DNA of 64,000 nucleotides from Myxococcota bacterium (GCA_022710975.1 JAKLGA010000017.1:1-64000); one strand, 5' to 3'; counted from the first letter of the stretch, positions 24,069 to 58,611 are shown. The notes: generated by a model not told the origin, from the sequence alone. Made by a program: numbers and translations.

Positions 24069-24761
24069 ATGCTGAGAAAGCTCATCCCGGCCGCGCTGCT
24101 GTGCGTGCTCCTGGCCGTCCCCGCCGCCCGGGCGCAGGACGAGGAGGAGAGCGGTTCGCTCCGAGACCGTATCAAGGGGGTCTCGGGCAAGCTCTACCTC
24201 AAGTCCGGCCGGCTGGAGCTGACCCTGCTGCCCCTGACCAGCATCAGCCTCAACGACGCCTTCTACCAGAAGCTGGGCGGCGGGCTGCAGCTCGCCTACC
24301 ACTTCTCGGACGCCTGGGCGCTGGGGCTGACGGGCACCTACAGCCTGAACCTGGACTCGGGCAACGCCAACTACTACGGGCGCCAGGCCGAGGACATCCC
24401 CTACGCCGGCAAGCGCAACTTCCTGTTCAGCCTGGAGGGCATGTGGGCCCCGCTGTACGGGAAGATCTCGGTGGCCGCCGAGTGGACCCTGCACTACGAC
24501 ACGTATATTTTGCTCGGGCTGGGAGGCATCGGCGGCGACCAGACCGGCGGAGACCTGAGCTTCGGCGTGGCCGGCACGGTGGGGCTCGGGGCCCGGCTGT
24601 TCTTCCTGGACTGGCTGGCGCTGCGGCTCGAGTTCCGCGACTACCTGCTGTTCAACGACAAGGTGTCCTACGACAAGACCGAGAAGACCGACGTCCAGAA
24701 CCAGCTCATGATCAACATCGGGCTGAGCTTCTTCGTGCTGGACGCCGACCCGGAGGAGTGA
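24069..24761 (+). CDS. gltA: GltA-like outer-membrane beta-barrel, gliding machinery
   Basis: 230 residues; signal peptide MLRKLIPAALLCVLLAVPAARA. The mature protein alternates hydrophobic beta-strands ending in aromatic residues, as in small outer-membrane barrels, and ends ...LMINIGLSFFVLD. It shares LNDAFYQKLGGGL and the DVQNQLMINIGLSFF end with the next gene, so the two are paralogs, like GltA and GltB of Myxococcus xanthus. Assignment as gltA rather than gltB rests on order (gltA-gltB-gltC) and shorter length. In the Glt complex these barrels link the trans-envelope machine to the cell surface. Confidence 0.75.
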   Translation: MLRKLIPAALLCVLLAVPAARAQDEEESGSLRDRIKGVSGKLYLKSGRLELTLLPLTSISLNDAFYQKLGGGLQLAYHFSDAWALGLTGTYSLNLDSGNANYYGRQAEDIPYAGKRNFLFSLEGMWAPLYGKISVAAEWTLHYDTYILLGLGGIGGDQTGGDLSFGVAGTVGLGARLFFLDWLALRLEFRDYLLFNDKVSYDKTEKTDVQNQLMINIGLSFFVLDADPEE

Positions 24762-24764
24762 GCC

Positions 24765-25550
24765 ATGCGAACGAGAATGCACATCGCCTCGCTCCTCGCG
24801 GTCGGGCTGCTCGTGGCCGGTGGGCCGCCGTTCGGCGGCTCGGCCCGGGCCGAGGAGGGCAAGGGCGGCAAGGAGGGCGAGGCCAAGCCCGCTCCGGCCG
24901 GCGACGCCAAGCCCGCCCAGGTCGCGGACGAGGACAAGGACAAGAAGGACGTCGAGGTGCGCCAGGACCGCATCAAGAGCATCCAGCGCAAACCCGTGCT
25001 CAAGCGCATGCGCTGGGAGCTCACCCCGACCTTCTCCCTCAGCCTGAACGACGCCTTCTACCAGAAGCTGGGCGGCGGGCTGGGGCTGACCTTCCACCCG
25101 GCCGACTCGCTGGGGCTGGAGCTGGCCGGCACCTACGTCGGCACCGTCCAGAGCGACATGGTGGGCTTCTTCCAGCAGGCCAACCAGGCCCTGCCCAAGG
25201 TGTCCAAGCTGATGTACTACTTCACCGGCAGCGTGGCCTGGTCGCCGCTGTACGGCAAGCTGTCCTTCGTGACCGACGACATCGTCTACATGGACCTGTA
25301 CCTGCTGGCCGGCTTCGGCATGGCCTACTCGGAGACGGGCGCCAAGCTGGCCGGCAACGTGGGGATCGGGCTGCGCTACTTCATCAACTCGTGGCTGGTG
25401 CTCAAGCTCGAGGTGCGCGATCTCATCTACACCGAGACCTTCCGCCTGGACGTGTCACGCACCGAGTACTCGGACGTCCAGAACCACGTCATGCTCGACA
25501 TCGGTCTGAGCTTCTTCCTGCCGACCGACTTCGAGTACGAGTTCCAGTGA
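24765..25550 (+). CDS. gltB: GltB-like outer-membrane beta-barrel, gliding machinery
   Basis: 261 residues; signal peptide ending GGSARA-EEG, then a Lys/Glu/Ala-rich linker (residues 31-70) that the upstream paralog lacks, then a barrel domain with SLSLNDAFYQKLGGGLGLTFHPADSLGLELAGTY and the terminal strand HVMLDIGLSFFLP. It starts 3 bp after gltA, so translation is coupled. The long charged linker would sit in the periplasm and could contact the TPR proteins encoded next. Same family as GltA/GltB of M. xanthus. Confidence 0.75.
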   Translation: MRTRMHIASLLAVGLLVAGGPPFGGSARAEEGKGGKEGEAKPAPAGDAKPAQVADEDKDKKDVEVRQDRIKSIQRKPVLKRMRWELTPTFSLSLNDAFYQKLGGGLGLTFHPADSLGLELAGTYVGTVQSDMVGFFQQANQALPKVSKLMYYFTGSVAWSPLYGKLSFVTDDIVYMDLYLLAGFGMAYSETGAKLAGNVGIGLRYFINSWLVLKLEVRDLIYTETFRLDVSRTEYSDVQNHVMLDIGLSFFLPTDFEYEFQ

Positions 25551-25563
25551 GCGGGGTGCGGCG

Positions 25564-27594
25564 ATGCGCCACAGCAAGCTTTCCTTCGTGCTGGTGTGTG
25601 GACTCGGCCTGAGCCTGTGGCTGGGCGGGGCGGGGCCGTGGCCGGCCCTGGCCCGGGCCCAGGACGACGGGCTGGGCATCGACCTCACCGGGGACGAGAC
25701 CAAGAAGAAGAAGAAGAAGGACGCCAAGAAGCCGGACCCGAAGAAGCCGGGCGAGGCGAAGGCCGCGGACGGCAAGGCCGCCGACGACGGCGGCTTCGGC
25801 TTCGAGGCCCTCGACGTGTCGGTCAAGAGCGCCGAGAAGGAGGCCATGGAGGCCGCCCTCGACCAGATGAAGGACGAGAAGTACGAGCCCGCCGCGGTGA
25901 GCTTCTGGGATCTGTACAACAACCCGAAGGCCAAGCAGTACTTCCAGAGCTCGGAGTACCAGCTCGCCAAGGCCCTCTACCGCATGCGCCTGTACCACAC
26001 GGCGCTCCAGCACTTCGGCAAGATCCTGGAGAAGGGCACCGACCACAAGTACTTCAAGACCTCGCTCGAGTGGCTGTTCTTCATCAGCCACAAGGTCAAG
26101 GACCAGCGCGAGGTGCTCGACTACATCGCCCGCTACTCGGACGTTGAGTTCCCCAAGAAGTACCGGGACGAGTTCCTCTTCCTGCTGGCCAAGAACTTCT
26201 ACTTCCGCGCGCTGGAGATCGAGAAGGGCGCCGTCGCGGCCGCGGCGCCGGCCGCCAAGCCGGCCGAGGGCAAGCCCGCGGCCAAGCCCGCCTCCGGCGA
26301 GGAGGAGATGGGCTTCGACCTCGGCGGCGGGGACGAGGGCGAGAAGTCCGGCGGCGGGGACGACGGCCTGGGCCTCGATCTGACCGGCAGCGGCGGGGGC
26401 GGCGCGGCCGGCGGCGGCGGGCTGGACCTCGGCGGCGGCGACGAGATGGGGCTGGACCTCGAGGACTCCAAGAAGACCGGCCCGAGCGCGCTGCCCACCG
26501 ACGCGGTGGGCCTGCTGTCCAAGTCCAAGGCGCTGCTGCTGCAGGTGGGCGAGAACAGCAAGTTCTACCCCCGCGCGCGCTACCTGGAGGGCGTCATCTT
26601 CTACAAGGAGGAGAACTTCCAGGAGGCCGTGGGCGCCTTCCGCAAGGTGGTCCGCCTGCTGCACCCCAAGACGGGCAAGTTCCGCGACGACGCGCTGCGC
26701 GAGATGGCCTTCTTCCAGCTCGCGCGCACCCACTACGCGCACAAGCAGTTCCGCTACGCGCTGTTCTACTACGACCGCATCACCAGCGACAGCGTGCAGT
26801 GGCTCGACTCGCTGTTCGAGTCGAGCTGGGCCTGGTTCCGGCTGGGCAAGTTCCAGAAGGCGCTCGGCAACCTGATCACCCTCGACAGCCCCTTCTTCCG
26901 CGAGGAGTACTTCCCCGAGGGGCTGGTGCTCAAGGCGGTCACCTACTTCGAGAACTGCCGCTACCCGGAGTCCAACCAGATCGTCACCGAGTTCCGCACC
27001 CGCTACGAGCCCCTGTACAAGGAGCTGGACAAGCTCGTCTCGCAGAAGATGGAGCCCGAGGCCTACTACAAGAAGCTGCTGGCCATCCAGACCGCGCCCA
27101 GCGACGACCCCGCGGGCAAGCTGCTGCGGCGCATCCTCAAGGTGGCGCTGCAGGACGACGACCTCAAGGTGCTGAACGCCTCGGTGCTGGAGATCGAGCG
27201 CGAGATGCAGCGCATCCGCAAGAAGCCGGCCAGCTTCACCGGCAGCAAGCTGGCCAAGCGGCTGCTGGACATGCTCAAGGGCCAGCGCGACGCGCTGGTG
27301 GTGAAGGCCGGCGAGCTCACCAAGCGCCGCCTGGAGCAGGAGCGCGACGCCCTGTCCACGCTGATCGGCCAGGCGCTGCGCATCAAGCTGGAGAACGACA
27401 ACGCCGAGCTGGACGTGCTGCGCCGGGCCAAGGCCGGGGACACGGATCTCGGCCCCACGCTGCTGCCCTACGACTGGACGGCCGCCACCGACGACGAGAA
27501 GCTCTACTGGCCGTACGAGGGCGAGTACTGGCGGGACGAGCTGGGCACCTACGAGTACACGCTGACCTGGGGCTGCCGGAAGCAGGTCGAGTAG
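25564..27594 (+). CDS. gltC: GltC-like periplasmic TPR protein, gliding machinery
   Basis: 676 residues, almost the length of M. xanthus GltC (about 670). Signal peptide ending ALARA-QDD, a poly-lysine stretch (KKKKKKDAKK), then TPR-like helices (AAVSFWDLYNNPKAKQYFQSSEYQLAKALYRMRLYHTALQHFGKIL). A Gly/Asp-rich insert at about 245-305 repeats the motif G(L/F)DL(G/T)G, and further TPR units follow (ARYLEGVIFYKEENFQEAVGAFRKVV). It comes 13 bp after gltB. In M. xanthus, GltC works with the GltA/B barrels at the outer membrane. Confidence 0.8.
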   Translation: MRHSKLSFVLVCGLGLSLWLGGAGPWPALARAQDDGLGIDLTGDETKKKKKKDAKKPDPKKPGEAKAADGKAADDGGFGFEALDVSVKSAEKEAMEAALDQMKDEKYEPAAVSFWDLYNNPKAKQYFQSSEYQLAKALYRMRLYHTALQHFGKILEKGTDHKYFKTSLEWLFFISHKVKDQREVLDYIARYSDVEFPKKYRDEFLFLLAKNFYFRALEIEKGAVAAAAPAAKPAEGKPAAKPASGEEEMGFDLGGGDEGEKSGGGDDGLGLDLTGSGGGGAAGGGGLDLGGGDEMGLDLEDSKKTGPSALPTDAVGLLSKSKALLLQVGENSKFYPRARYLEGVIFYKEENFQEAVGAFRKVVRLLHPKTGKFRDDALREMAFFQLARTHYAHKQFRYALFYYDRITSDSVQWLDSLFESSWAWFRLGKFQKALGNLITLDSPFFREEYFPEGLVLKAVTYFENCRYPESNQIVTEFRTRYEPLYKELDKLVSQKMEPEAYYKKLLAIQTAPSDDPAGKLLRRILKVALQDDDLKVLNASVLEIEREMQRIRKKPASFTGSKLAKRLLDMLKGQRDALVVKAGELTKRRLEQERDALSTLIGQALRIKLENDNAELDVLRRAKAGDTDLGPTLLPYDWTAATDDEKLYWPYEGEYWRDELGTYEYTLTWGCRKQVE

Positions 27595-27624
27595 GCCGGC
27601 GCGGCAAGGACGGAGGCCTGGGAC

Positions 27625-30600
27625 ATGGTCGCGAGACGGGCGCTGTGGGCGTTGGGGGTCTGGTTCCTGGCGGCAACCGTGCTCCCGGGCGGGCCGCCCG
27701 AGGCGCAGGCCTACACCACCGGCCAGAAGAAGGAAGACCCCAAGGAGAAGAAGCGCAAGCCGCTGCTCGACTACCAGCAGATGCGCCGTGGCCGCAAGGT
27801 CGACCGCCAGATGGCCGAGAAGCGCGAGGGCATCCGGCGGCAGATCGAGGATCTGCTGAAGTTCGAGAAGGACCCCAAGGAGATCCCCCAGCTCAAGTTC
27901 CAGCTCGCCGAGAACTACTTCGAGGAGGCCCAGAGCTTCTTCGACATGGGCCAGGAGCTGGACGAGAAGCTGATGAAGGACCCGACCAACGAGAAGCTGC
28001 GGGCCGAGGTGGCCGCGGAGCAGGCCAAGCTGCGCAAGGTCGAGGACGAGTGGCGCAACAAGGCCATCGACATGTACATGCAGCTCGCCAAGGACTACCC
28101 GGACTACCCGGGCCGCGACCAGGTGCTGTTCTACCTGGGCGAGTCGCTGTGGGACATGAAGCGGCAGAAGGAAGCCCTGACGGTCCACAAGGAGCTCATC
28201 TCCACCTACCCGCAGAGCCAGTACGTGCCCGACGCCTACCTGGCCTTCGGCGACTACTACTTCGACAAGGCCGAGCTGGACAAGGCGCTGATGGCCTACA
28301 AGAAGGTGGCCGAGTACAAGGAGTCGCAGGTCTACATGTACGCCATCTACAAGCAGGGATGGTGCTACTACAACCTGCACGAGTGGGACAAGGCCAAGGA
28401 GTCGTTCCAGGAGGTCGTGCACCTGTCCGATCTCGAGTCCGCCTCCACCGGCCGGAAGATCGATCTGCGCAAGGAGGCGCTCAACGACTTCACCCTGACC
28501 TACTCCCACGAGGGCGGGGCGGAGAGCGCCCCGCGCGTGTTCCAGCGCCTGGCCCCCAAGGAGGCCCACGACCTGCTGATCAACCTGGCCAACATGTTCT
28601 TCGGCGACGGCAAGGACAAGAAGGCCATCGTCCTGTACCGCTGGCTGATCGAGCAGGAGAAGTGCTCGGCCGAGGTGCCCTTCTACCAGGGCCGGGTGGT
28701 CGACGCCGCCTCCCGCGTGGGCGAGAAGCGCTACACCGTCAGCCAGGTGCGCCGGCTGCTGGAGCTGTTCAAGGAGGTCGAGGGCTGCGTCAAGAACCCC
28801 GACGCCCGGCAGAAGGAGCGCATCCGCGAGGCGCGCGAGATGGCCGAGCTGACGCTGCGCAAGCTCTCCTCCATCTGGTACAAGGAGGCCAAGGAGACGC
28901 AGCAGAAGGACACCTTCGAGTACGCCCAGGAGCTGTTCGGCGACTACCTGGATCTCTTCCCCGAGTCCAAGGACGCCTACGACATGCGCTTCGCCTACGC
29001 GGAGCTGCTCTTCCACCGCCTGGGCCGCTACGAGCGCGCGGCGGTGGAGTACTCCAAGATCGTCGAGGAGGACCTGGCCTACAAGAAGAAGAACGGCAAG
29101 TTCCCGCCCAAGGAGACCGATCCCAAGAAGCGCTCCGCGCCGGGCACGTACATGTGCGACTCGGCCTTCAAGGCCATGCAGGCCAACCGGGAGCTGCTCA
29201 AGAAGGAGAAGAAGGCCGACCGCAAGAAGCGCAAGGAGAAGAAGGAGGAGGGCAAGAAGGACGGCGCCAAGCCCAAGCAGGAGGCCCAGCCCATCCCCAA
29301 GAACAAGCTGCGCTTCATTCGCTCGGCCGAGATCTACATGGATCACTGCCCCCAGGATCAGGACGTGGGGGACGTGAAGTACGACATCGCCAAGACCTAC
29401 TACGACTACTACCACCTCGACGAGGGCATCAGGCGCTTCGACGAGATCGTGCGCGACTTCCCCAAGAGCGATCTGGCGGTCTACTCGGCCAACCTGGTGC
29501 TCGACTCCCTCCAGGAGAAGGAGGACTTCGAGAGCCTCAACACCTACGCGCGCAAGTACTACAAGAGCCCGGACCTCATGGCCAACGAGAAGCTGCGCGC
29601 CGATCTCACCCGCCTCATCCCGGAGATCGCCTTCAAGCGCGTCGGCAACCTCGAGGCCATGCTGGCCAACCCGCCCGCGGGCAAGCCCAGGCTGGCCGAG
29701 GCCAAGATGCACAGCAAGGTGGCCTTCGCCTACATCGGCTTCTGGCGCGAGTTCCCGCAGCACGAGCTGGCCGACGAGGCGCTGTTCAACGCCTCGGTGA
29801 AGTACATGCAGGCCGAGCGCCTGGACAAGGCGCGGAAGGCGCGCGAGCTGTTGATCGAGAAGTTCCCCGAGAGCGATCTCGTGCCCGGCACCATCTTCAA
29901 CCTGGCCGAGAACTACGAGCGCATGGCCGACTTCGACCGCGCCGCCTCGCTGTACGAGCGCTACGCCGAGACCTACAAGAAGATGAAGGGCCTGGGCAAG
30001 GCCGTGTCCTACAAGGAGCGGGGCAAGAAGCCGCCGCCCCCTCCCAAGGGCAAGGACAAGAAGGACAAGGGCAAGGACGCCAAGAAGCCCGAGGCCAAGT
30101 TCGAGGGCAACCGGCGCACCTGGAACCTGGAGGACGCCCGGGACGCCCTGCTCAACGCGGGCGTCTACCGCGAGGCGCTGCGGCAGTTCGACAAGGCGGT
30201 CAAGGATCGCAACGAGTTCGTCGACCTGTTCCCGGACTCGGACGACGCCCCCAAGGTCTTCTACTCCCTCGGCCTGATGTACGAGCGCCTGGGCAAGCTG
30301 CCGCAGGCCGCCGAGATCTTCAAGACCTACTCGACCAAGTACTTCAAGTCGAACCCGGATCGGGCCATCGCCGCGCACATGAAGCGGGCGGTGCTGCTGC
30401 GCAAGGCCAAGAAGAAGGTGGACTGGAAGGAGATCGACCGCGAGGTGCGCGAGACGCTCAAGCTCTACAACCTGCACAAGAAGAAGATCAAGGAGCTGCC
30501 CGAGGCGGCCGAGGCCGCGGCCCACGCCTCCTTCATCCTGGCCGAGCCGGTGTACGAGGACTTCATCAAGTACAAGTTCACCCTGAGCGGCGCAGGCAAG

Positions 30601-31341
30601 AAGCTCGAGGAAGGGCTCAAGAAGATGCTGGCCGAGAAGGTCAAGCGCTTCAAGAAGGTCGAGACGACCTACACCGACGTGGCCAAGCTCAAGCAGCCCG
30701 AGTGGGCCATCGCCTCCCTGTACCGCATCGGCCGCGCCTACGAGAACTTCGCCGAGACGTTCTACAACGCGCCGCTGCCCAAGGGGCTCACCCCGGAGCA
30801 GATCGATCTGTACAAGGGCATGCTGCGCGAGCAGGGCCAGCCCTTCGAGGACAAGGCGGTCGCCCACTTCAAGGCCGCCGTGGACAAGGGCTCGGAGCTC
30901 GGCTTCTACTCCGACTACTCCCAGAAGGCGCTGGAGAAGCTGCAGCACTACCGCCCGGCCGAGTTCCCCCGCGAGCAGCTCGGCTTCTCCCTGGGGCTGG
31001 CCGCCGCGCCGGCCTTCCGCAACCCGCTGCTGCTGGCCCTGTGGGACGACGCCAAGGCGAAGCCCGAGCTGCTGAACGAGCCGCCCCTGGTCACCCAGCG
31101 CGTCGGCGGCGAGCCCGTGCCCGCCCCGGCGCCCGAGGTCAAGGACCGGGAGGCGCCGAAGGATCCGGACAAGGGCCCGCCAGCGGGCGATCAGGCCAAG
31201 CCCGGCGAGCCGGCCAAGGCCTCGGGCGAGGCCAAGCCGGCGGAGGCCGCGGCCAAGCAGCCCGAGCCGCCCAAGGAGCCCGGGGATCCCGCTAGCGAGG
31301 CCATGCAGGAGGACGAGCCGGGTGACGACGAGTTCGAGTGA
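27625..31341 (+). CDS. gltD: GltD (AgmU)-like giant periplasmic TPR protein
   Basis: 1238 residues, close to M. xanthus AgmU/GltD (about 1200). Signal peptide ending PEAQA-YTT. The body is repeated TPR units (QVLFYLGESLWDMKRQKEALTVHKELISTYPQS; DAYLAFGDYYFDKAELDKALMAYKKVAEYK) broken by lysine-rich linkers (KKEKKADRKKRKEKKEEGKK at about 530; PPPPPKGKDKKDKGKD at about 810). The last ~110 residues are Pro/Ala/Lys/Glu-rich and end acidic. AgmU spans the periplasm and is part of the moving gliding complexes of M. xanthus. It lies in operon with gltC (30-bp gap). Confidence 0.88.
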   Translation: MVARRALWALGVWFLAATVLPGGPPEAQAYTTGQKKEDPKEKKRKPLLDYQQMRRGRKVDRQMAEKREGIRRQIEDLLKFEKDPKEIPQLKFQLAENYFEEAQSFFDMGQELDEKLMKDPTNEKLRAEVAAEQAKLRKVEDEWRNKAIDMYMQLAKDYPDYPGRDQVLFYLGESLWDMKRQKEALTVHKELISTYPQSQYVPDAYLAFGDYYFDKAELDKALMAYKKVAEYKESQVYMYAIYKQGWCYYNLHEWDKAKESFQEVVHLSDLESASTGRKIDLRKEALNDFTLTYSHEGGAESAPRVFQRLAPKEAHDLLINLANMFFGDGKDKKAIVLYRWLIEQEKCSAEVPFYQGRVVDAASRVGEKRYTVSQVRRLLELFKEVEGCVKNPDARQKERIREAREMAELTLRKLSSIWYKEAKETQQKDTFEYAQELFGDYLDLFPESKDAYDMRFAYAELLFHRLGRYERAAVEYSKIVEEDLAYKKKNGKFPPKETDPKKRSAPGTYMCDSAFKAMQANRELLKKEKKADRKKRKEKKEEGKKDGAKPKQEAQPIPKNKLRFIRSAEIYMDHCPQDQDVGDVKYDIAKTYYDYYHLDEGIRRFDEIVRDFPKSDLAVYSANLVLDSLQEKEDFESLNTYARKYYKSPDLMANEKLRADLTRLIPEIAFKRVGNLEAMLANPPAGKPRLAEAKMHSKVAFAYIGFWREFPQHELADEALFNASVKYMQAERLDKARKARELLIEKFPESDLVPGTIFNLAENYERMADFDRAASLYERYAETYKKMKGLGKAVSYKERGKKPPPPPKGKDKKDKGKDAKKPEAKFEGNRRTWNLEDARDALLNAGVYREALRQFDKAVKDRNEFVDLFPDSDDAPKVFYSLGLMYERLGKLPQAAEIFKTYSTKYFKSNPDRAIAAHMKRAVLLRKAKKKVDWKEIDREVRETLKLYNLHKKKIKELPEAAEAAAHASFILAEPVYEDFIKYKFTLSGAGKKLEEGLKKMLAEKVKRFKKVETTYTDVAKLKQPEWAIASLYRIGRAYENFAETFYNAPLPKGLTPEQIDLYKGMLREQGQPFEDKAVAHFKAAVDKGSELGFYSDYSQKALEKLQHYRPAEFPREQLGFSLGLAAAPAFRNPLLLALWDDAKAKPELLNEPPLVTQRVGGEPVPAPAPEVKDREAPKDPDKGPPAGDQAKPGEPAKASGEAKPAEAAAKQPEPPKEPGDPASEAMQEDEPGDDEFE

Positions 31342-31390
31342 ACCCGCGCCGCGCCGCTCGTGTCGGGTGCTGGAGAGGAGAGGGTGGTCC

Positions 31391-33343: not shown

Positions 33344-33387
33344 TATTGAATGGTTTTCGCAAGACCTGAAGCGCAGGAGGTCGTGAG

Positions 33388-33657
33388 ATGAAGACTGCAG
33401 GCCGCTGGATGATCGCGTGGCTGACCGGCCTGGCGTTGCTCCTCGGGCTGGCCGCATTCGCCTCCGCACAGGAGGACGAGAGCGTCATCTACAAGAAGAA
33501 GACGGTCTACAACTTCGAGGATGACACGATCACCGGCGATCTGACCCGCCCGGATCAGGAGTTCCTCACCGGTCGGAAGATGGCCAGGCACAAGAGCCTC
33601 ATCCGCATCCGGCAGGATTTCAAGGAGCGGGTGTTCCAGTCCGTCAAGGACCTGTAG
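33388..33657 (+). CDS. gltF: GltF (CglF)-like small periplasmic gliding protein
   Basis: 89 residues from an ATG preceded by AGGAGG. Signal peptide ending AAFASA-QED; the mature ~62 residues are highly charged: YKKKTVYNFEDDTITGDLTRPDQEFLTGRKMARHKSLIRIRQDF. Identity rests on position between gltE and gltG and on small exported size, as for GltF of M. xanthus. No domain is recognisable. It is co-transcribed with its neighbours (44-bp and 15-bp gaps). Confidence 0.75.
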   Translation: MKTAGRWMIAWLTGLALLLGLAAFASAQEDESVIYKKKTVYNFEDDTITGDLTRPDQEFLTGRKMARHKSLIRIRQDFKERVFQSVKDL

Positions 33658-33672
33658 GCCGGAGGTGACGCC

Positions 33673-35724: not shown

Positions 35725-35761
35725 GTGGCGGCGCCGGGCGCCGGGCCGCGGGAGAATGCCG

Positions 35762-36418
35762 ATGCGACGAGCGTGGGTGGTTTCGGGTGGCGCGCTGGTG
35801 TGGTTGTGCCTGATGGCGCCCGCGGCCGCCCTGGCCGAGGAAGCGGCCGGCGGCGCGCAGGACAGCGAGGAGCAGGGCCAGATCACCGGGGCCCCCAAGG
35901 CGCAGGTGTTCGAGGAGGTCGAGCGGGGGTTCTTCCTGCGCACGACCCTCGGCGCGGCCATGGCGGTGACGGACATGTTCGGCGACTCGGCTGGCGTCAA
36001 GCGGGAGTCCACGCTGTGGCCCGGGCCGGTGGTGGGGCTCGAGATCGGCTACGATTTCGGCCAGTACGCCTCCCTGCACCTGGCCGCCCAGGGCCAGCAG
36101 ATCATCGGCGTGCAGGAGCGGAACGACCGCGAGTCGGGCGCGGACGCCACCCTGCTGGCGCTCATGCTGGGCGGGCGGGTCAACCTGGTCACCTCCCAGC
36201 GCGTGGCCTGGTACCTCAAGGTGGGCGCTGGCTGGATGTTCACCTGGCCCGAATTGGCAGGCCTGGACTCGGGTTTCCTGGTGCACGGCGGCACGGGCGT
36301 GGAGTACGCCACCAAGCTGCGCCACTTCACCGTCGGCCTGGAGGCCACCGCCCAGTACGATATCGCCAACGGCGGCCTCCTGGTCGGCCTGAGCCCCACC
36401 CTCAAGTACGTCTTCTGA
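35762..36418 (+). CDS. gltH: GltH (AgnA/CglE)-like outer-membrane beta-barrel
   Basis: 218 residues. The second of two close ATGs is preferred because GGGAG is then correctly spaced. Signal peptide ending AAALA-EEA. The mature protein has alternating beta-strands (FFLRTTLGAAMAVTDMFG; PVVGLEIGYDFGQYASLHLAAQGQQ; AWYLKVGAGWMFTWPE) and ends in KYVF, the aromatic last residue recognised by the BAM complex. Position after gltG and before gltI matches gltH of M. xanthus. It is the last gene of the tight operon; a 176-bp gap with a promoter follows. Confidence 0.82.
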   Translation: MRRAWVVSGGALVWLCLMAPAAALAEEAAGGAQDSEEQGQITGAPKAQVFEEVERGFFLRTTLGAAMAVTDMFGDSAGVKRESTLWPGPVVGLEIGYDFGQYASLHLAAQGQQIIGVQERNDRESGADATLLALMLGGRVNLVTSQRVAWYLKVGAGWMFTWPELAGLDSGFLVHGGTGVEYATKLRHFTVGLEATAQYDIANGGLLVGLSPTLKYVF

Positions 36419-36506: not shown

Positions 36507-36594
36507 GCAGGCGAGCGAACCAGGTGCTTCTGCAACCCTCGGGACGGGTGTGCGTTCCCGCCCGACCGCGACCAAGCCGGGAGTCGACAGCGCC

Positions 36595-42500: not shown

Positions 42501-45500
42501 GGTCCCGAACCAGCCCCAGGCCGTCCAGGCGCTGGTGGAGATGTTCGACGCCAACGAGGCCCGCGCCAGCGTGGCCCCGGTGCTGGCCCAGGTGCTGGAG
42601 TCGCTGGGCGACTGGCAGCACCTGATCGCCGCCCTGGAGGTGATCCAGGCGCAGTCCCCCGAGCAGAGCGCGCGCAAGTCCGCGCTGGTGCGCATGTCGG
42701 GGGTGTACGAGCATCGGCTGGGCCAGAAGGAGATGGCCTTCAACGTGCTCGGCCGCGCCTTCCAGGAGGACCCGGCCGACGAGCGCCTGCGGCAGTCGCT
42801 CGAGCGGCTAGCCGCCGAGACGGGCGAGTTCGAGATGCTGGCCGCCATCTTCCAGCGGCGCCTGGAGGGCCTCGAGGACCGCGGGCTGCAGCTCGTGCTG
42901 CGGCGCCGGCTGGCGGGCGTCTTCGCCGAGCAGCTGAGCGACGTGGAGCGGGCCACCGAGTGCCTGCGGGCGGTGATCGAGCTGGATCCCAAGGACGCGG
43001 CCAGCCTGATGGCCCTGGAGCAGATCCACCGCCAGCGCGGCGAGCACGAGGCCCTGGCCGGCGTGCTGCGCCGGCGCGTCAAGATCGCCGACGCCGAGAC
43101 CGCCTCGGCGCTGCTGTACGAGCTGGCCGGCCTCCAGGAGGAGCGCCTGGGCGACCCGGGTGGCGCCATCCAGACCTACCGGGAGCTGCTGCAGGCGCAG
43201 CCCTCGGACCTCAACGCCTACCGCATGCTGGACCGCCTGTGCACCGCCCAGGGCCGCAACCGGGAGCTGGCCGAGGTGCTGGTGGCGGAGATCCGCCTGC
43301 TGGACGAGAAGGGTGAGCTGGCGGAGTCCCTCGATCTGCGCTACCGGCTGGCCCAGCTCTTCGAGCTGGAGTTCAACGACACCGAGCGGGCGGGCACGCT
43401 CTACCACGACATCCTCCAGGCCAACCCGGCCCACGCGCTCACGGTGTCCTACCTGGAGGGTCTGCTGACCGAGGGCCGCACGTTCGAGGGCGCCCAGGCC
43501 CTGCTGGAGACCGCCTACGAGAGCACCGGCGACTGGAAGAAGTACCTCGACATCCTGGAAGGACAGGTGCGCCAGTCCCGGGTCCAGGCCCGGCGCCTCG
43601 AGCTGTTGGAGAAGATCGCCCAGATCCAGGAGCACAAGCTGGGCATGCCGATCATGGCCTTCAACACCTACGTGCGCCTGTTCCACGAGGATCTCTCCAA
43701 CGCCCGGGTGCGCGCGGAGCTCGAGCGCCTGGCCGAGCAGGACGAGAACCTCGAGGCCCTGGCCGCGGTGTACGAGGAGGAGCTGGACAACATCGAGGAG
43801 CCCGCGGTCGGTGCGCTGATCGCCCTCAAGGTGGCCGACATCCAGCTCCGGCAGCTCGAGAGCGAGGACGAGGCGGTCAAGTTCTACCGCCGCGCGCTGC
43901 GCTTCGAGCCGCGCAACCTGCGCGCCCTGGCTGGCCTGGAGTCGCTGCTGATACGCCGCGAGCAGTGGGAAGACGCGGTGGACGTGCTGGCCAAGGAGGT
44001 CGAGCTGCTCAGCGAGCCGGCCGAGCTGGTGCGCGTGCTGAACCAGCTCGGCGCCATCCTGCTGGATCGGCTGGAGCAGACCGGCAAGGCGGTGGGCTAC
44101 TTCCGGCGCTCGCTGGATCTCCAGCCGGGCGACCTGAAGAGCATGGCTCAGCTCGCCCGCGCCTTCGAGGCGCTGGAGGACCACGAGTCGCTGTACGAGG
44201 TGCTGCGCGAGCTCCACGGCCTGGTCAAGGATCCGGCCGAGCGGCTCGTGCTGGTCAAGCGCATCAGCGAGCTGGCCTCCGGACCGCTCAACCGGCCGGA
44301 CGAGGCCGTGGGTCTGTGGCAGGCCATCGCCAAGGAGCAGCCCAAGAACCAGGAGGCCTTCGAGGCCCTGAACCAGCTGTTCGAGGCCGCCGGGCGCTGG
44401 CGGGAGCTGGCCGAGCTGCTCGAGGCCCGCATGCGCAGCACCACCGACCCGGAGAAGATCTCCGTCCTGTCCAGCCGGCTGGGCTGGGTCAAGGGTGAGA
44501 AGCTGGGCGAGCTCGAAGAGGCCATGAAGAGCTGGCAGGAGGTCCTGCGGCTCAACCCGAAGGACCTCACGGCGCTCCAGGCCCTGCGCGGCATCTACAA
44601 CGCCACCAGCGAGTGGGAGAAGCTGCTGCAGGTGCTGCGCAAGATGGTCCCGCTGCAGGAGGACATGGCGGGCGTCAAGACGCTGCGCTTCGAGCTGGCG
44701 GAGATCCTGGGCGAGAAGCTCTCGCGGCGCGACGAGGCCATCGAGGCGGCCAAGCGCGCGCTGGACATCGAGCCGCACACCGCCTCCGACCTGGAGCGGA
44801 TGTCGCGCATCTTCCAGGCCAACGAGGCCTGGCAGGACGCGGTCAACGTCCTGGAGATGGCGGCCAACCTGCGCGAGACGCCCGCCGAGAAGATCGAGAC
44901 CCTGCTGGACGTGGCCGTCCTGTGGAAGGAGCAGGTCAAGCGGCCGCTCGGCGCCGCCCCGGCCTACGAGAAGATCCTGGAGCTCGATCCCGCCCACGAC
45001 GAGGCCTACCGGGCCTGCCTGGACATCTACCGCGAGCACAAGGAGTGGCGGCGGTTGACGGCCCTGATGGAGGCGCGGCTGTCCCAGATCCGCGAGCGCA
45101 AGGATCGCGTGCTGATCATCAAGGACGTGGCCGAGATCTACGAGCGCAACCTGGGCCAGAAGGAGCTGGCGTTCGCCCGCTACTGCGCGGCCTTCCGCGA
45201 GGACTTCGGCGACGACTTCGTGCTGGGCAAGCTCGAGCAGCTGGCCGCCGACACCGAGGACTACGAGACGCTGCTGGAGGTGCTGGAGGACGCCACCTCC
45301 GAGGTCACCACCGGCGCGCGGGCCGTGGGCCTGCTGCAGAAGGTGGCCCACATCTACTGGCGGCGGATGAGCGACCCGGCCGAGGCCGAGTCGAGGCTGC
45401 TGCGCGCGGTGAGCCTCGATCGGCGGGACATCTCCTCGCTCGATCTCCTGGCCCAGATGTACGAGGAGGCCGGGCGCTGGGAGGACGTGGCCCACACCCT

Positions 45501-48500
45501 GGAGACGAAGTACGAGCGGACGGACGAGCTGGACGGGCGCAAGGCGCTGCGGGCGCGCATCGCCGATGTCCAGGAGGAGCACCTCGGCCGCATCGATCTG
45601 GCCATCGAGAGCCAGCGCCGCATCCTGGAGCTGGACGGACGGGACGGGCCCGCCATCCAGAGCCTGATCCGCCTCTACCAGCACGAGGGCAAGTGGCAGG
45701 AGCTCATCTCGGTGCTGCGCCGGGCCGCCAACCAGGCCGACGACCGCCAGATCACCATCCAGTTCCTGTTCAACATCGCCAGCATCTGGGAAACCGAGAT
45801 CGACAGCGACGAGGACGCCATCGAGGCCTACCGGGACGTGCTCGAGTTCGAGGCCTCCCACCTCCCGTCGCTCGAGGCGCTGGAGCGAATCTACACCCGG
45901 CTCGATCGGCAGAGCGAGCTGCTGCAGATCTACGACCGCCAGGTCGGGCTGGTCACGGGTGTGGAGGACAAGGTCAAGATCTTCACCAAGATGGGCAGCA
46001 TCTGGGAAGAGCGCTTCAGCAACTTCACCAACGCGGCGGCCTGCTACCAGAGCATCCTGGACCTGGACGCGCGGCACCTGCCGTCCATCAAGGCCCTCGA
46101 GCGGCTCGTGCGCCGGATGACCGACTGGAGCCGGCTGATCGAGCTGTACTACCGCCACATCGACCTGATCCAGGACCGCGGTGAGGCCGTCTCCATCCAC
46201 CTGGCCATCGGCGACGTCTGGTACCACGAGCTCAGCCGGGTGGACAAGGCCGAGGAGGTGTTCGCCAAGGCCCTGCAGATCGACGACCAGTCCCGCGAGG
46301 CGATGCACGCCCTGGGGGAGCTCTACGAGAAGAGCGGCAACTGGTTCAACGCCATCGAGATGCTCAACCGGGAGGCGGAGCTGTGCGGCGCCACCCCGGA
46401 GGCGGTGGAGATCTACTACCGGCTGGGCAAGATCCAGGAGGACATGCTGCTGGACTCCCACGCCGCGCGGGACGCCTACACCAAGGCGCTGACCATCGAG
46501 CCCGCCTTCCTGCCGGCCATCAAGGCCCTCAAGCTGATCTACTTCCTGGACAAGGAGTACGAGTCTTACCTGCAGATGATGTCGCAGGAGGCCGAGCACA
46601 CCGAGGACGTGGAGGAGAAGACCCGGCTGTTCCACGAGATCGGCAAGTTCCTGCAGGAGCAGCGGGACGACGCCGCCCAGGCGGTGCGCTACTACGAGGA
46701 GGCGCTGCGCCTGACGCCCGACTTCCTCCCGGCGGCCAAGCCGCTGGCGGACATCTACTTCCGCACCGAGCAGTGGGAGAGCGCCGAGCGCATGATGGAG
46801 GTGGTGGTCCAGGGCCTGGATCGCAACGCCGAGGCCAAGGAGCTGTGCCGGCAGCACTACCGGCTGGGCTACATCACCGAGAAGCTGGGCAAGGAGGACA
46901 AGGCGCTTGAGCACTACCGCACGTCCTACGAGCTGGACGCCACCTACCTGCCGGCGCTCGAGGGGCTGGGCAACGCGCTGATCAAGACCGAGCGCTGGGA
47001 GGACGCCTACCGCATCTACCAGACCATCCTCATCCACCACCGCGACAGCCTGTCGGACGCCGAGGTGGCCGAGCTCTACTGGCAGCTCGGCGACGTCACC
47101 TTCCACATGGGCGAGGCCGAGCGGGCCCTGGGCAGCTTCGCCAAGGCGCTGGAGATCGAGCCGGCGCACGTGGCCTCGCTGCAGTACAGCGTGCGGATCT
47201 ACGAGCAGCAGAACAACTGGGAGGAGGCCTACGATCTGGCCCAGCAGCTCATCGAGCACCTCGAGGGCGATGAGCTGTTCGATCACTACATGCACATCGC
47301 GGCCATCTGCCGCGAGCACCTGCAGGACGCCTTCCGTTCGGTGGACGCGCTGCAGGGCGCGCTGCGCCTCCAGCCGGCCAACCTCGAGGTGCTGGTGGCG
47401 CTGCGCGATCTGTACGTGCAGACCCGCCAGCACCAGAAGGCGGTCGAGGTCCTGGAGCGCATCATCCAGGCGGAGGGCCGGCCGAGCCGCCTGGTGGAGG
47501 CGCACTTGCAGGCGGCCGAGCTGCTGCGCGACGAGATCCGTGACGACGCCCGCGCGGTCGAGCACTTCAACACCACCCTCGACATCGACCCCTCGCAGGT
47601 CAAGGCCTTCCAGGCCATCTCCGAGATCTTGAGCCGCCGCAAGGACTGGCTGCAGCTCAAGGAGAACTACATCAAGATGATCAAGCGGCTGCCGCCCGAG
47701 GCGCGCAAGACCAAGCTGGCCCTGTGGCGCGATCTCGGCGAGCTGTGCCGCGTGGTGTTACGGAACCTCAACGAGTCCATCGACGCCTACCGCATGATCA
47801 CCGCCCTCGATCCCGAGGACGTCGACGCACTCGCGGTCCTGGGCGACCTCCTGGGCGCCAAGGCCGGCGCGGCTGACGAGGCCATCGCCACCCACCAGAA
47901 GGTGCTCACCCTGGCGGCCGATCGCGTCAACAGCTACCGCAGCCTGTGGAAGCTGTACAACGCCAAGAAGGACTACGACAAGGTCTTCTGCCTGACCACC
48001 ATCCTCAAGTACCTCAAGAAGGCCGACGACGAGGAGCAGAAGATCGTCAACTACTTCGCGCGCAAGGCCCCCCAGCAGGCCGCGCGCCCGGTCACCGATC
48101 CCATCTGGGAGAAGCTGCTGGCGCACCGCGACGTGAAGGTCCCCTTCACCCGCATCTTCGGCACCATGGTCCGCATGGCCGCGCCCATGTTCGTGGTGGA
48201 GCACAAGGACGTCGGCCTGCGCGCCAAGGAACACCAGGTGGACCTGGCGCGGGACCGCAGCCTGGTGGCCCACAACTTCCGCATCGCCGCCAAGGTGCTG
48301 GGCGGCCTCGAGGTGGAGCTGTTCGCCCTGAAGGACCAGGCCGCGCCCAACCCGCCGGGGCTGGCCATCGCCCTGACCAAGCCGACCTCGATCATCGCCT
48401 TCAAGGACATCTTCATCGAGGACAAGAAGAAGTTCCTGCTGTTCCACATCGGCCGGCAGCTGGCCATGACGCGCGCCGAGTTCCTGCTGGCGTGCGCCGT

Positions 48501-48906
48501 GCCCTTCGTCGAGCTGAACAACCTGCTCCAGGCGGCCTGCCTGCTGGTGAAGCCCGGCCACAAGGCCGAGGGGGACGCCCGGGGCATCGAGCGCGCCAAG
48601 ACCAACCTCAAGCGCGCGCTCAGCGAGCAGGGGCTGGGCATGATGCAGCGGGCCGTGGCCGAGTACCTGAAGGATCCACGCGCCTTCAGCCTCAAGCGCT
48701 GGGTCGAGGCGGTCGAGCACTCGATCAACCGCGCCGGGTTGGTGGTGTGCAACGACCTGGCGGTCAGCCTGACCGTGCTCAAGCAGGAGGGCGGAGGGCT
48801 GACGCCCATGCGTCCGATCCAGCGGGTGCGGGAGCTGCTGGTGTTCTCCTCCAGCCCGGAGTACTTCGCCCTGCGCGAGGCGATCGGCCTGAACGTGGGG
48901 CCGTGA
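36595..48906 (+). CDS. gltI: GltI (AgmK)-like giant TPR protein
   Basis: 4103 residues from the ATG giving MDEQIRNYQRILKANPTD; a GTG 15 codons earlier is less likely. No signal peptide or membrane helix, so cytoplasmic, as proposed for AgmK/GltI (about 3800 residues). Nearly the whole protein is degenerate TPR-like helical pairs of about 35-40 residues with recurring LY(R)E and W-x-E-L-(A/V) patterns. The last ~270 residues differ: an alpha/beta domain starting DPIWEKLLAHRDVKVPFTRIFGTMVRM. A long helical solenoid is thought to couple motor and regulators to the inner-membrane complex. Sequence quality looks even, with no frameshift over 12.3 kb. Confidence 0.93.
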   Translation: MDEQIRNYQRILKANPTDLPAFTALEELFKGKDLWRELVELYEERMRHVQAPEVLRVLLEKCAGVLLHKLNDAARAEGCFEQLLRLQPDHRAALEGLESIYSLRKDHERLAQVLEAQAGLAEDTTERAALFERLGKLYSETLHRRSRALVAWRHALTADPKRLHVLAALQETYLELGAFDRVREFLDREAAVDEGDAQAVAAKYLRLGQQLLEEPLHEAACRQALEKAKGMLVEPAPATAALAALDAAVADREAHIKRLRVEAVEAPDKNRAVSLYRRIAEIYYLMGNHDAQVEENLEKCSLLQPGNTRVVAFLERYYLESRKAKQLIEKLKAMAAKVKDRKQAIPILERTAMLTAVHLQDRKAALELYRKVVELEPGHVSATASLVEAYQEEGRWAEVVELLKGQAERQTDPHARAEILFQIARITSDQLKDPEAARFQYEEILRLERDNLRAAAALERIYERAKDWKGLTRVLAIQARQAAEPEEKVRLLDRLAELHRDKLKDPVEAFLVVLQGLALKPERKKAIKEAQELGEQTGRFQELAGALRLVVDSGALEDKRAVELLGVVAELHDKKLQNAAEAIRAYQAILERDPKNMAALDALERLQVAAGGSVELVAIYRRQLDLVRSGQKKKELLYKLAAIFCERMADFGQAIQAYRQVLELDGKDTQAWRALADLFEREGRWEEAAQAIEQTLAGAVPPAERPRLLHRLAAIFEQRLNDTERALALCQEILSTEQVEAELAAATVTILERLQSRGVNPMRIAEVLQPYYALAGDYRRHIDMLELRVEGSTTAAERVGLLQRIAQVYEVEMGQKELAFTALGRAFALAPERQEVAEELKRLAQETGRLEDLATAQESALQATSERGLQIQLACQLGALYRDQLKRPRAAIDAFRRASALAPEDPALERHLSDLFRENQMFEELAQSLQRRVDQATEPAERKLLMLELGDLHQTQLHDRPQAIATFQVLQRLLGDDLDVLKRLDVLLEKESRWPDLADVLERMLPLVGADEASELRLRLGRVRAERMEEHQHAVEHYRQVLGERPEDERAIQGLESLLERPDSAAAAADILLPIYEKRENWEGQVRALEVQAEAAAEPAVKLELVRKAARICDRQLNQLERSFDLLRRAYRIDPSQSEVLQALERQAEKIGKHEGLAASLEEALTAQAGQPPSGDGGQVFLLQKLSDLYREKLRRPDLATAALRRLLEVDARNSAALTSLETLYRDAHSFQELAWVLGRQAELAADGGKQRDLLVQLAQLSEEQIHDLDGAVAAYQQVLALDENDLHAAKQLDRLYQATGRWSEAAELLPRLASLTKNTLGVIEYNSRLAAILSERLQDGRRAIDIYRQVLELKPGHPETVTCLEKMLADERYRLAAAETLEGVYRAGGEWRKLAAILEMMLAATPEPKQRIGLYAQLKEIFETRMSERALAFNVAARAFREQPQDDGVHSDLVRLAGEGGFFEELAGLYSDVSERQVGTPLAAKVRKHLAGIYETRLNRRAEAVALWQQLLAEDGADEEVLVALERLYREQGDFPALVDVYLRQVALATEAPRKKDLLFQAAATLAEGVEDLGRAVDVYRQILSLDPADRRAWRLLDQLLLLSERWLELGEVLEHEVALSPVQPGPGEPDLRLDLLLRLAQLRLERLDQGEGALACLQEVLSRQPTEPRAVELLERMLARGDTRLGAATLLEPVYRRQSDFRKLVAIMEVLLAGHADLAARLALFRELMRIYETELSQKPLSFMVACRAFRENCQDEGIRLDLERLAQETGAFEELAGVLEEVLPAAAGSPVHSVLERRLAQLKEAYLQDKDEAVSHWRQVLASDPDDPEALKALERLYRERGAYQELVGILRHLAVVAPTLERKKDLYHEVATLMEERLGRNDGAIEAYREILAEDPKDLAVLKLVDRLLEREGRWEELREVLQQQIDRAATSELVPLQLRLGQLHRLHLGEPDKAVEVFGRIFKSVPNQPQAVQALVEMFDANEARASVAPVLAQVLESLGDWQHLIAALEVIQAQSPEQSARKSALVRMSGVYEHRLGQKEMAFNVLGRAFQEDPADERLRQSLERLAAETGEFEMLAAIFQRRLEGLEDRGLQLVLRRRLAGVFAEQLSDVERATECLRAVIELDPKDAASLMALEQIHRQRGEHEALAGVLRRRVKIADAETASALLYELAGLQEERLGDPGGAIQTYRELLQAQPSDLNAYRMLDRLCTAQGRNRELAEVLVAEIRLLDEKGELAESLDLRYRLAQLFELEFNDTERAGTLYHDILQANPAHALTVSYLEGLLTEGRTFEGAQALLETAYESTGDWKKYLDILEGQVRQSRVQARRLELLEKIAQIQEHKLGMPIMAFNTYVRLFHEDLSNARVRAELERLAEQDENLEALAAVYEEELDNIEEPAVGALIALKVADIQLRQLESEDEAVKFYRRALRFEPRNLRALAGLESLLIRREQWEDAVDVLAKEVELLSEPAELVRVLNQLGAILLDRLEQTGKAVGYFRRSLDLQPGDLKSMAQLARAFEALEDHESLYEVLRELHGLVKDPAERLVLVKRISELASGPLNRPDEAVGLWQAIAKEQPKNQEAFEALNQLFEAAGRWRELAELLEARMRSTTDPEKISVLSSRLGWVKGEKLGELEEAMKSWQEVLRLNPKDLTALQALRGIYNATSEWEKLLQVLRKMVPLQEDMAGVKTLRFELAEILGEKLSRRDEAIEAAKRALDIEPHTASDLERMSRIFQANEAWQDAVNVLEMAANLRETPAEKIETLLDVAVLWKEQVKRPLGAAPAYEKILELDPAHDEAYRACLDIYREHKEWRRLTALMEARLSQIRERKDRVLIIKDVAEIYERNLGQKELAFARYCAAFREDFGDDFVLGKLEQLAADTEDYETLLEVLEDATSEVTTGARAVGLLQKVAHIYWRRMSDPAEAESRLLRAVSLDRRDISSLDLLAQMYEEAGRWEDVAHTLETKYERTDELDGRKALRARIADVQEEHLGRIDLAIESQRRILELDGRDGPAIQSLIRLYQHEGKWQELISVLRRAANQADDRQITIQFLFNIASIWETEIDSDEDAIEAYRDVLEFEASHLPSLEALERIYTRLDRQSELLQIYDRQVGLVTGVEDKVKIFTKMGSIWEERFSNFTNAAACYQSILDLDARHLPSIKALERLVRRMTDWSRLIELYYRHIDLIQDRGEAVSIHLAIGDVWYHELSRVDKAEEVFAKALQIDDQSREAMHALGELYEKSGNWFNAIEMLNREAELCGATPEAVEIYYRLGKIQEDMLLDSHAARDAYTKALTIEPAFLPAIKALKLIYFLDKEYESYLQMMSQEAEHTEDVEEKTRLFHEIGKFLQEQRDDAAQAVRYYEEALRLTPDFLPAAKPLADIYFRTEQWESAERMMEVVVQGLDRNAEAKELCRQHYRLGYITEKLGKEDKALEHYRTSYELDATYLPALEGLGNALIKTERWEDAYRIYQTILIHHRDSLSDAEVAELYWQLGDVTFHMGEAERALGSFAKALEIEPAHVASLQYSVRIYEQQNNWEEAYDLAQQLIEHLEGDELFDHYMHIAAICREHLQDAFRSVDALQGALRLQPANLEVLVALRDLYVQTRQHQKAVEVLERIIQAEGRPSRLVEAHLQAAELLRDEIRDDARAVEHFNTTLDIDPSQVKAFQAISEILSRRKDWLQLKENYIKMIKRLPPEARKTKLALWRDLGELCRVVLRNLNESIDAYRMITALDPEDVDALAVLGDLLGAKAGAADEAIATHQKVLTLAADRVNSYRSLWKLYNAKKDYDKVFCLTTILKYLKKADDEEQKIVNYFARKAPQQAARPVTDPIWEKLLAHRDVKVPFTRIFGTMVRMAAPMFVVEHKDVGLRAKEHQVDLARDRSLVAHNFRIAAKVLGGLEVELFALKDQAAPNPPGLAIALTKPTSIIAFKDIFIEDKKKFLLFHIGRQLAMTRAEFLLACAVPFVELNNLLQAACLLVKPGHKAEGDARGIERAKTNLKRALSEQGLGMMQRAVAEYLKDPRAFSLKRWVEAVEHSINRAGLVVCNDLAVSLTVLKQEGGGLTPMRPIQRVRELLVFSSSPEYFALREAIGLNVGP

Positions 48907-48954
48907 GGCGTGCTGGACGCCCGGCGTACGGTCCCGCGCCAGGGCGTCGCGAAC

Positions 48955-48984
48955 TTGAGGGGCCGGTGGACGCTCTGGTAGGAT
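48955..48984 (+). promoter_or_regulatory. Sigma70-type promoter of gltJ
   Basis: TTGAGG-N18-TAGGAT in the 146-bp gap between gltI and gltJ. Start near 48991; leader about 60 bases. Confidence 0.6.
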
Positions 48985-49052
48985 CCTGGCTCGGGGCAGA
49001 TCCATCGACCCCGCGCAGGAGTCGAACAGGGCGGTAGCGGAGGAGCTGCGCT

Positions 49053-50858
49053 GTGAAGTTCGTGTGCGACAATTGCTCCACCCAGTATCTCATCGCAGAC
49101 GAGAAGATCTCCGCCAAGGGCGTGAAGGTCCGCTGCAAGCGCTGCGGACACGTGATCGTGCTCAAGCCCGAACAGACCGGGGTGAGCGCCGATCCCGCCG
49201 GGCTGCCGACCGATCCCTCCGGCCAGCCGCTGGGCACCAGCCGGCGCAGCCCGGAGGAGGTCGGCCAGGCGTTCGATCAGCTCCTCGGGGGCGGCGGGCC
49301 GGCGGGCGGGGAGGAGGAAGATGACCAGGACGACGGCCAGGCCACCGAGATCTTCCGCATGGAGGACGTGCGGCGCTCCCAGCGGCAGAACGACTCGGTG
49401 AACGCCAGGCTGGACGAGGTCTTCGCGGCCGGCTCCTCCACCGAGGTCAAGAGCGGCGCCGGAGAAGCCGCCAAGGGCGACTGGTACCTGGCCATCGGCG
49501 ACGAACAGGTCGGCCCGATGAAGCTCAGCGAGGTCGACGCGCGCTGGGCCGCTGGAGAGATCGGCCCGCGCACGCTGGCCTGGCAGACCGGGATGGCCGA
49601 GTGGAAGGCCATCCGGGAGATGGAAGGGCTGAAGCACCTGTGGGGGGCGGCCAAGGCGGCCGAGGCGCAGCCCGCCGCGGCGCCCGCCGAGCAGCAGCCC
49701 CAGGCCGAGCGGCCCGCGGCCAAGGACCCCTCGGAGGAGCTGTGGTCGCCCAACCGCCACTCGGAGCTCGCCTCGCTGGTCGAGGAGGAGATGGAGGCCG
49801 CGGTCAAGGTCCCGGCCAGCTCCTCCGCCAAGGCCAGCCCGGGCGAGGGCTTCGGCCTGCCCGAGTCGGAGGAGGTCCCGCCCTGGGAGCGCGAGGACTC
49901 CGTGGTGTCGGGCGAGGTGGCCCGGCCGTCGGAGTCCTACTTCGATTCGTCCCTGGACTCCAAGCCAGACGAGGCGGGGGGCAAGTCCAACGCCGCCTAC
50001 AGCCGCTCCGGCAGCGTGCTGGCCGGGCCCGCCTACCTGGGCGGCGCCAAGCGCTCGGGCTCCAAGATGAAGCTCGTCGCGGTGGCCGCGGGGGCCGGGC
50101 TGCTGGTCGTGCTGGCCGCGGTCGGGTACTTCGCCCTGAGACCGGGCCCGGAGCCCGAGCCAGGCGGCAAGATCGAGCCCGTGGGCCCGCCCGAGCGGGT
50201 TGGCGAGGGGAACGGGGCCGCCGCCGCGCCCGACGCGGGCAAGCCGGCCGAGGGAGGCCCGGACAAGCCCAGCGAGGGCAACCCGGCCAAGCCCGGCGAG
50301 GGCAGCGGGGGCGAGACGGACGTGGCCAAGCCGCCCGACGGCGCCGGCGAGAAGCCCGGCGAGGCCGAGATCGTGGTCAAGAAGCCCGGCGAGGTGAGCG
50401 GCCCGGACAAGCCCGCGGAGGTCAAGAAGCCCCCGGTCGGCCCGGGCACCCGCAAGCCGCCCGTGGCCGGCGTCCAGAAGCCCAAGGTCCCGGGCGACGG
50501 GGGCAAGCCGAAACCGCCCCCCGACAAGCCGGTCCCGCCTCCCGAGCCCGAGGCGGGCGGCGATCTGCCCCAGAAGCTGGCCCAGGCCGACGTGGGCAAG
50601 GCCCTGCAGAAGTTCGTTCCGGCCATGAAGGGCTGCGTCCAGCAGCAGCAGCAGCGCGATCCGTCCGTGACCGGGACCATGGTGGTCACCTTCACCATCG
50701 CCCCGTCCGGGGCCGTGAGCTCCTTCACGGTGTCCACCAAGGAGCACGAGGGCACCTACGTGGCCAGCTGCATCTCGTACATCATCAAGGCGATCAAGTT
50801 CCCCAAGGCCCGCGAGCCGTTCACCGTCCCCAAGCTCCCGCTCAAGCTCGGCGGTTGA
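49053..50858 (+). CDS. gltJ: GltJ (AgmX)-like zinc-ribbon/GYF/TonB-like transducer
   Basis: 601 residues from a GTG preceded by GGAGGAG. Residues 1-38 are a zinc ribbon (C5, C8, C28, C31; the MJ0042 type). Residues about 144-195 are a GYF_2 domain (WYLAIGDEQVGPMKLSEVDARWAAGEIGPRTLAW). One membrane helix lies at 340-361, then a long Pro/Lys/Gly-rich periplasmic linker, and a C-terminal TonB-like domain (about 505-601: GKALQKFVPAMKGCVQQ...GTMVVTFTIAPSGAVSSF). This is the exact plan of AgmX/GltJ, whose cytoplasmic modules receive MglA and MglB-side regulation in M. xanthus and whose TonB end works in the periplasm. It closes the glt cluster. Confidence 0.95.
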   Translation: MKFVCDNCSTQYLIADEKISAKGVKVRCKRCGHVIVLKPEQTGVSADPAGLPTDPSGQPLGTSRRSPEEVGQAFDQLLGGGGPAGGEEEDDQDDGQATEIFRMEDVRRSQRQNDSVNARLDEVFAAGSSTEVKSGAGEAAKGDWYLAIGDEQVGPMKLSEVDARWAAGEIGPRTLAWQTGMAEWKAIREMEGLKHLWGAAKAAEAQPAAAPAEQQPQAERPAAKDPSEELWSPNRHSELASLVEEEMEAAVKVPASSSAKASPGEGFGLPESEEVPPWEREDSVVSGEVARPSESYFDSSLDSKPDEAGGKSNAAYSRSGSVLAGPAYLGGAKRSGSKMKLVAVAAGAGLLVVLAAVGYFALRPGPEPEPGGKIEPVGPPERVGEGNGAAAAPDAGKPAEGGPDKPSEGNPAKPGEGSGGETDVAKPPDGAGEKPGEAEIVVKKPGEVSGPDKPAEVKKPPVGPGTRKPPVAGVQKPKVPGDGGKPKPPPDKPVPPPEPEAGGDLPQKLAQADVGKALQKFVPAMKGCVQQQQQRDPSVTGTMVVTFTIAPSGAVSSFTVSTKEHEGTYVASCISYIIKAIKFPKAREPFTVPKLPLKLGG

Positions 50859-58599: not shown

Positions 58600-58611
58600 T
58601 CTTTGGTACCC

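Follow-up and report, generated by a model that had tools for sequence, protein, structure and literature searches.

In Myxococcus xanthus, the gliding machinery is encoded at separate loci, namely G1 (gltD-J), G2 (gltK and gltBAC) and M1 (aglRQS), with mglBA at a locus of its own. M. xanthus also possesses the Glt paralogues G3 (nfs), G4 and G5, and Nfs is devoid of GltI and GltJ (PMC3169522). The promoters of cglC (gltK) and gltBAC are divergent in this organism (PMC4488436). Luciano et al. (2011) found G1 and G2 grouped in four Anaeromyxobacter and linkages to have been lost later, and proposed that GltH, GltI, GltJ and GltK were recruited stepwise and late (PMC3169522).

We analysed a stretch of 64,000 nucleotides (the window), which corresponds to C9:1-64000 in the 7.13-Mb genome of a Myxococcota bacterium (G000). 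Ten successive plus-strand genes between positions 24069 and 50858 encode orthologues of GltA to GltJ, without a foreign gene in between. Both points had been made in a preliminary description of this DNA and were confirmed, the first by family models, BLASTP and a tree of concatenated GltD, GltE and GltG, the second by gene calls and spacing (3-44 bp between neighbours from gltA to gltH, 131 bp between gltH and gltI, 146 bp between gltI and gltJ). The outer-membrane beta-barrel proteins GltA (24069-24761, 230 aa) and GltB (24765-25550, 261 aa; best M. xanthus match GltB, 32%) scored 113 and 120 bits, respectively, against TIGR04565 (OMP_myx_plus barrels, curated cut-off 60 bits). Four of four equivalog families reached or exceeded their cut-offs: the periplasmic TPR protein GltC (25564-27594, 676 aa; NF033756, 618 bits, cut-off 450), the TPR lipoprotein GltE (31391-33343, 650 aa, lipobox LVGGC; NF033758, 225.2 bits, cut-off 225), GltF/CglF (33388-33657, 89 aa; NF033764, 92 bits, cut-off 90) and the outer-membrane barrel GltH/CglE (35756-36418, 220 aa; NF033755, 116 bits, cut-off 70). 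The inner-membrane protein GltG (33673-35724, 683 aa), which combines an FHA N-terminus (E=2e-17), one hydrophobic segment (366-384) and a TonB-like C-terminus, obtained 635 bits against NF033760, just below the cut-off of 650, and sorted with Glt in the concatenated tree. GltJ (49053-50858, 601 aa), likewise an inner-membrane protein with one hydrophobic segment (338-356) and a TonB-like C-terminus, remained below the cut-off of NF033761 (224 versus 450 bits); its head carries a Zn-ribbon (Zn_ribbon_4, E=2e-14; Cys 5, 8, 28 and 31) and a GYF domain (GYF_2, E=2e-15).

GltD and GltI, for which there is no specific family model, were identified by BLASTP. The periplasmic protein GltD (27625-31341, 1238 aa), which contains TPR domains, was 34% identical to Archangium GltD over 86% (E=1e-170) versus 27% to NfsD, and the giant TPR protein GltI (36550-48906, 4118 aa) was collinear with M. 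xanthus GltI, with 31.6% identity over 99% of 4118 aa (1491 bits). In Nfs loci, GltI had no full-length match, just a short one at the level of TPRs. As judged by these comparisons, the family matches of the ten genes are far beyond chance. A different frame for gltE (31360-33216) was discarded as wrong, having no family match; the true gene, at 31391-33343, has a low-complexity, repetitive Lys-Pro-Gly-Ala tail (window 33000-33300, GAKPGEGAKPADGAK...), as a result of which the protein exceeds M. xanthus GltE by about 180 residues.

The preliminary description was mistaken in listing gltK/cglC as absent from the window. With good, if not complete, confidence we assign the minus-strand gene at 22955-23764, divergent upstream of gltA, as a gltK/cglC homologue, which would place the start of the Glt locus at about 22955 and make it a set of eleven genes. 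The predicted product is a Cys-rich outer-membrane lipoprotein of 269 aa, with an ATG at 23764, 304 bp from gltA, and the lipobox VAGLGGC. The assignment is based on a profile match, shared motifs, a conserved position and the divergent promoters of M. xanthus. The CglC/GltK profile NF033754 had one match in the 7.13-Mb host genome, at 23384-23737, and this match was weak (E=1.7e-4; 23.5 bits, below the cut-off of 60); a single Myxococcus GltK sequence used as query gave no match in the host family, and the profile alone detected the gene. Downstream of the lipobox, the motifs (I/V)GxxC, CxxL(I/V)C and GYC(S/T)KxC are common to Myxococcus, Anaeromyxobacter and other members. The gene is kept at the same divergent place in five related genomes (G007, G006, G005, G002 and L072), and the divergent position also occurs in Myxococcus, Anaeromyxobacter, G040, G018 and G024. 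Relative to M. xanthus GltK, the protein is about 100 residues longer owing to an additional Cys-rich C-terminal part. An overlapping minus-strand frame (22917-23942) was rejected as wrong. The intergenic region (23765-24068, 304 bp) contains, on the plus strand upstream of gltA, a sigma-70-like site (TTGACA-18-TATCGT, 23907-23936); one such site was found in the region versus 0.5 expected by chance, which is weak alone, and apart from it the promoter scans were near background.

All 11 frames are open with a third-position G+C content of about 0.89-0.99, GltG and GltC are 67-72% identical in sister genera, and the locus is kept there together with its flanks (an AsmA-like gene upstream; lipoate ligase, HEAT and other genes downstream). 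The intact frames and the strong conservation make it almost inconceivable that the locus is a degenerate or non-expressed remnant, a reading for which nothing speaks except that some scores are below cut-off. The sole Rfam matches in the window are two tRNAs, a tandem of tRNA-Gly(gcc) and tRNA-Cys(gca) at 58527-58682.

As M. xanthus has Glt paralogues, the clusters were compared with each other. Each of the ten proteins scored higher with Glt of Myxococcus/Archangium than with the sporulation paralogue Nfs. In the concatenated tree, the window joined Glt of M. xanthus, Archangium and Anaeromyxobacter in one clade (100/100), to which neither Nfs nor G4/G5 belonged. In line with the preliminary description, the two barrel genes and the gene for the 676-residue TPR protein fall in Glt as gltA, gltB and gltC. 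The Nfs spore-coat system (nfsA-H) has homologous proteins in the same A-H order in one operon, but it forms a separate clade and lacks GltI, GltJ and GltK, of which the window has the first two and a GltK-like protein. The host genome contains an Nfs-like A-H cluster elsewhere (C26:63-75 kb, L109), which is sister to Myxococcus Nfs (100/100), suggesting that the lineage may own a sporulation machine as well.

With the window, the Nfs-like cluster, an mgl-linked locus and two further clusters, the host genome has five Glt-like machines. The mgl-linked locus (C1:43.6-57.3 kb; L103, L104) reads mglB-mglA-x-C-D-E-MotA-ExbD-ExbD-G and is also present in G005, G006 and G007 (L232-L234); the motor encoded there is orthologous to M. 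xanthus M2, and the C/D part to G4. M. xanthus G4 likewise follows mglBA (L235), without M2, and the G4, M2 and mglBA set looks ancestral. The two further clusters are located at C1:228-243 kb (L106, L107) and C26:45-54 kb (L108); the former includes a MotA and two ExbD genes of its own.

The ten genes had been described as following the order gltA to gltJ, which was confirmed; relative to M. xanthus (gltB-A-C), gltA and gltB are swapped. In a tree of the barrel genes, the first gene clustered with M. xanthus GltA in a GltA clade (98/98), which excluded the second, pointing to the order gltK / gltA-B-C in the host family versus gltK / gltB-A-C in Myxococcus and Anaeromyxobacter.

The contrast between M. 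xanthus, in which gltABC and gltK lie apart from gltD-J, and the joined locus in the window was corroborated. The joined arrangement is not unusual: it is already known from the four Anaeromyxobacter (PMC3169522), and an A-H set also makes up the M. xanthus nfs operon. Besides the host family, three further Myxococcota lineages have a joined locus. In G021 (Anaeromyxobacteraceae), gltA-J are complete and uninterrupted, and G062 shows nearly full contiguity, without gltH; a joined (B/A)-C-D-E-F-G(-H) order is also found in G038 (Anaeromyxobacteraceae), L045, L047, L076, L088, G012 and G018. The Anaeromyxobacter loci resemble the window in having gltK, gltB/gltA and gltC-J joined and a standalone aglRQS triplet, and differ in the B-A order and, in G038, in the roughly 8 kb that separate gltH and gltI. 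The loci of the other uncultured Myxococcota (L045, L047, L076, L088, G012, G018) are joined from gltB/gltA to gltH, several with a divergent gltK, and differ in having no gltI or gltJ directly after gltH where the flank is available. In G040, about 6.8 kb lie between gltC and gltD (C9:289-295.7 kb) in an otherwise joined locus.

The split arrangement is found in Myxococcaceae and UBA1203, whose members form one clade in the Glt tree (100/100). The arrangement labels together require three changes on this tree, which is the minimum, and all four basal branches, as well as the Nfs outgroup, have gltA/B-C-D-E-F-G(-H) joined. Because the split loci form one clade and the Nfs outgroup is joined, the phylogeny indicates that the joined arrangement is ancestral and that the M. 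xanthus state goes back to a single split in the lineage ancestral to Myxococcaceae and UBA1203. Of the two origins considered in the preliminary description, an ancestral arrangement and a secondary join, it is thus the former, followed by one later split, that agrees with the Glt tree and the Nfs outgroup. That the one-locus form is a secondary join peculiar to the host lineage might be suggested by the separation of the blocks in the reference organism M. xanthus, but is highly improbable in view of the joined state of the basal branches and the outgroup, the single clade of split loci with its minimal number of changes, and the full or nearly full contiguity in G021 and G062.

The presence of gltI, gltJ and gltK in the ancestral locus is less sure than the joined state, because gltI and gltJ were not seen directly after gltH in the G012 and G061 branches, in which the flank of gltH was examined. 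Only tentatively, and against somewhat unfavourable odds, can a single locus with gltK and gltA-J be ascribed to the ancestor from which all Glt machines descend. If this were true, the full transducer, including the MglA-responsive GltJ and the giant GltI, would have existed before the Myxococcota classes retaining it diverged, and the late-recruitment scheme of 2011 would need revising towards later losses.

As described previously, aglRQS, mglAB and a clear cglB are not within the window; motor homologues were found elsewhere in the source genome. Among its eight MotA/ExbB-type genes, one belongs to a MotA-ExbD-ExbD triplet at C1:429-431 kb, adjoining ftsQ-ftsA-ftsZ, and its product clusters with M. 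xanthus AglR (100/99). The products of the triplet are each reciprocal best matches of M. xanthus AglR, AglQ and AglS (53, 36 and 39% identity), the reference proteins having been picked by their exact published lengths (245/162/194). This aglRQS orthologue is convergent to ftsQ-ftsA-ftsZ (C1:425.6-431 kb, L105). Another candidate, at C1:658-660 kb, had fitting sizes, yet grouped with another M. xanthus ExbB-type motor and not with AglR. The mglB gene, the sole Roadblock/LC7 gene of the host genome, lies with mglA at C1:43.6-44.8 kb, and both products are reciprocal best matches of their M. xanthus counterparts (72% identity for MglB, about 80% for MglA). Finding aglRQS and mglAB elsewhere in the genome removes the doubt over a missing motor and switch.

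CglB is needed for gliding in M. xanthus. Of the other genes that were to be sought in the genome, gltK has a homologue in the window itself, as proposed above; for cglB, the search gave just a weak match to a VWA lipoprotein. No clear CglB orthologue was found in the host genome, and a single-sequence query had no match at E<=1e-3. The CglB model, NF033757, was reached by way of Myxococcus, in which a VWA lipoprotein gene lies downstream of M2; NF033753, tried as a CglB model, represents an unrelated family. Parts of the CglB profile were weakly matched by a VWA lipoprotein of 383 aa (C28:25.1-26.2 kb), which is a candidate surface adhesin. VWA lipoproteins are common. The C28 protein (L310 7087-8235) has a MIDAS-like motif (DKSGSM) and counterparts in sister genomes, which likewise match portions of the CglB profile.

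Taken together, the locus probably encodes an orthologous Glt complex of GltK and GltA-J in its ancestral one-locus form, serving gliding as in Myxococcus. An AglRQS-driven, MglA-controlled gliding complex is the most likely function because orthology holds for transducer, motor and switch alike and because GltI, GltJ and a GltK-like protein, the parts that distinguish gliding from the assembly of spore coats, are present; the main reservation concerns the adhesin, CglB. The similarity to M. xanthus extends to the eleven Glt families, GltK being a proposed homologue, the giant GltI, the Zn-ribbon/GYF head of GltJ, the divergent gltK promoter region and the separate loci for motor and mglBA, whereas the union of G1 and G2, the A-B order and the want of a clear CglB set the host apart. 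By analogy with M. xanthus, the AglRQS motor, driven by protons and seated in the inner membrane, would engage GltG and GltJ, the TonB-like ends of which would span the periplasm. GltC, GltD, GltE and GltF would link GltG and GltJ to the outer-membrane barrels GltA, GltB and GltH, a connection that the lipoprotein GltK may assist. The GltJ head would act as an MglA-responsive switch, and MglA-GTP would govern assembly, probably via this cytoplasmic Zn-ribbon/GYF head. A surface adhesin would then receive the force, making the cell glide. That the genes specify one functional complex, as the preliminary description had inferred, was judged right at this level of inference.

A Glt orthologue that drives something else, such as the movement of surface polysaccharide or spore coat, as Nfs does, or contact with prey, is unlikely, even though the nearest paralogue, Nfs, serves sporulation with a similar complex (PMC3169522) and the adhesin is in doubt. 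Such a role would leave unexplained why the host retains aglRQS and mglAB, has a separate Nfs orthologue and keeps GltI, GltJ and a GltK-like protein, which Nfs lacks. Moreover, CglB-like VWA lipoproteins exist in the host family, and in A. dehalogenans CglB has been reported missing, yet gliding is presumed.

The host of the proposed gliding complex seems to represent a deep-branching, apparently uncultured lineage of Myxococcota: its close relatives comprise eight genomes from a single family but from different genera, the next nearest genomes compared share the phylum alone, and the named relatives are MAGs labelled Deltaproteobacteria or Myxococcales bacterium. The find soundly extends the known gliding system rather than revealing a new one. 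It provides a clean, single-piece transducer gene set from a lineage distant from Myxococcus, indicating that the blocks seen apart in the model organism were separated late and only once and that gltH and gltK arose earlier than the 2011 scenario assumed. Occurring with the known motor and switch in one genome, the compact set is well suited to supply divergent sequences for structural modelling and for the analysis of part co-occurrence.
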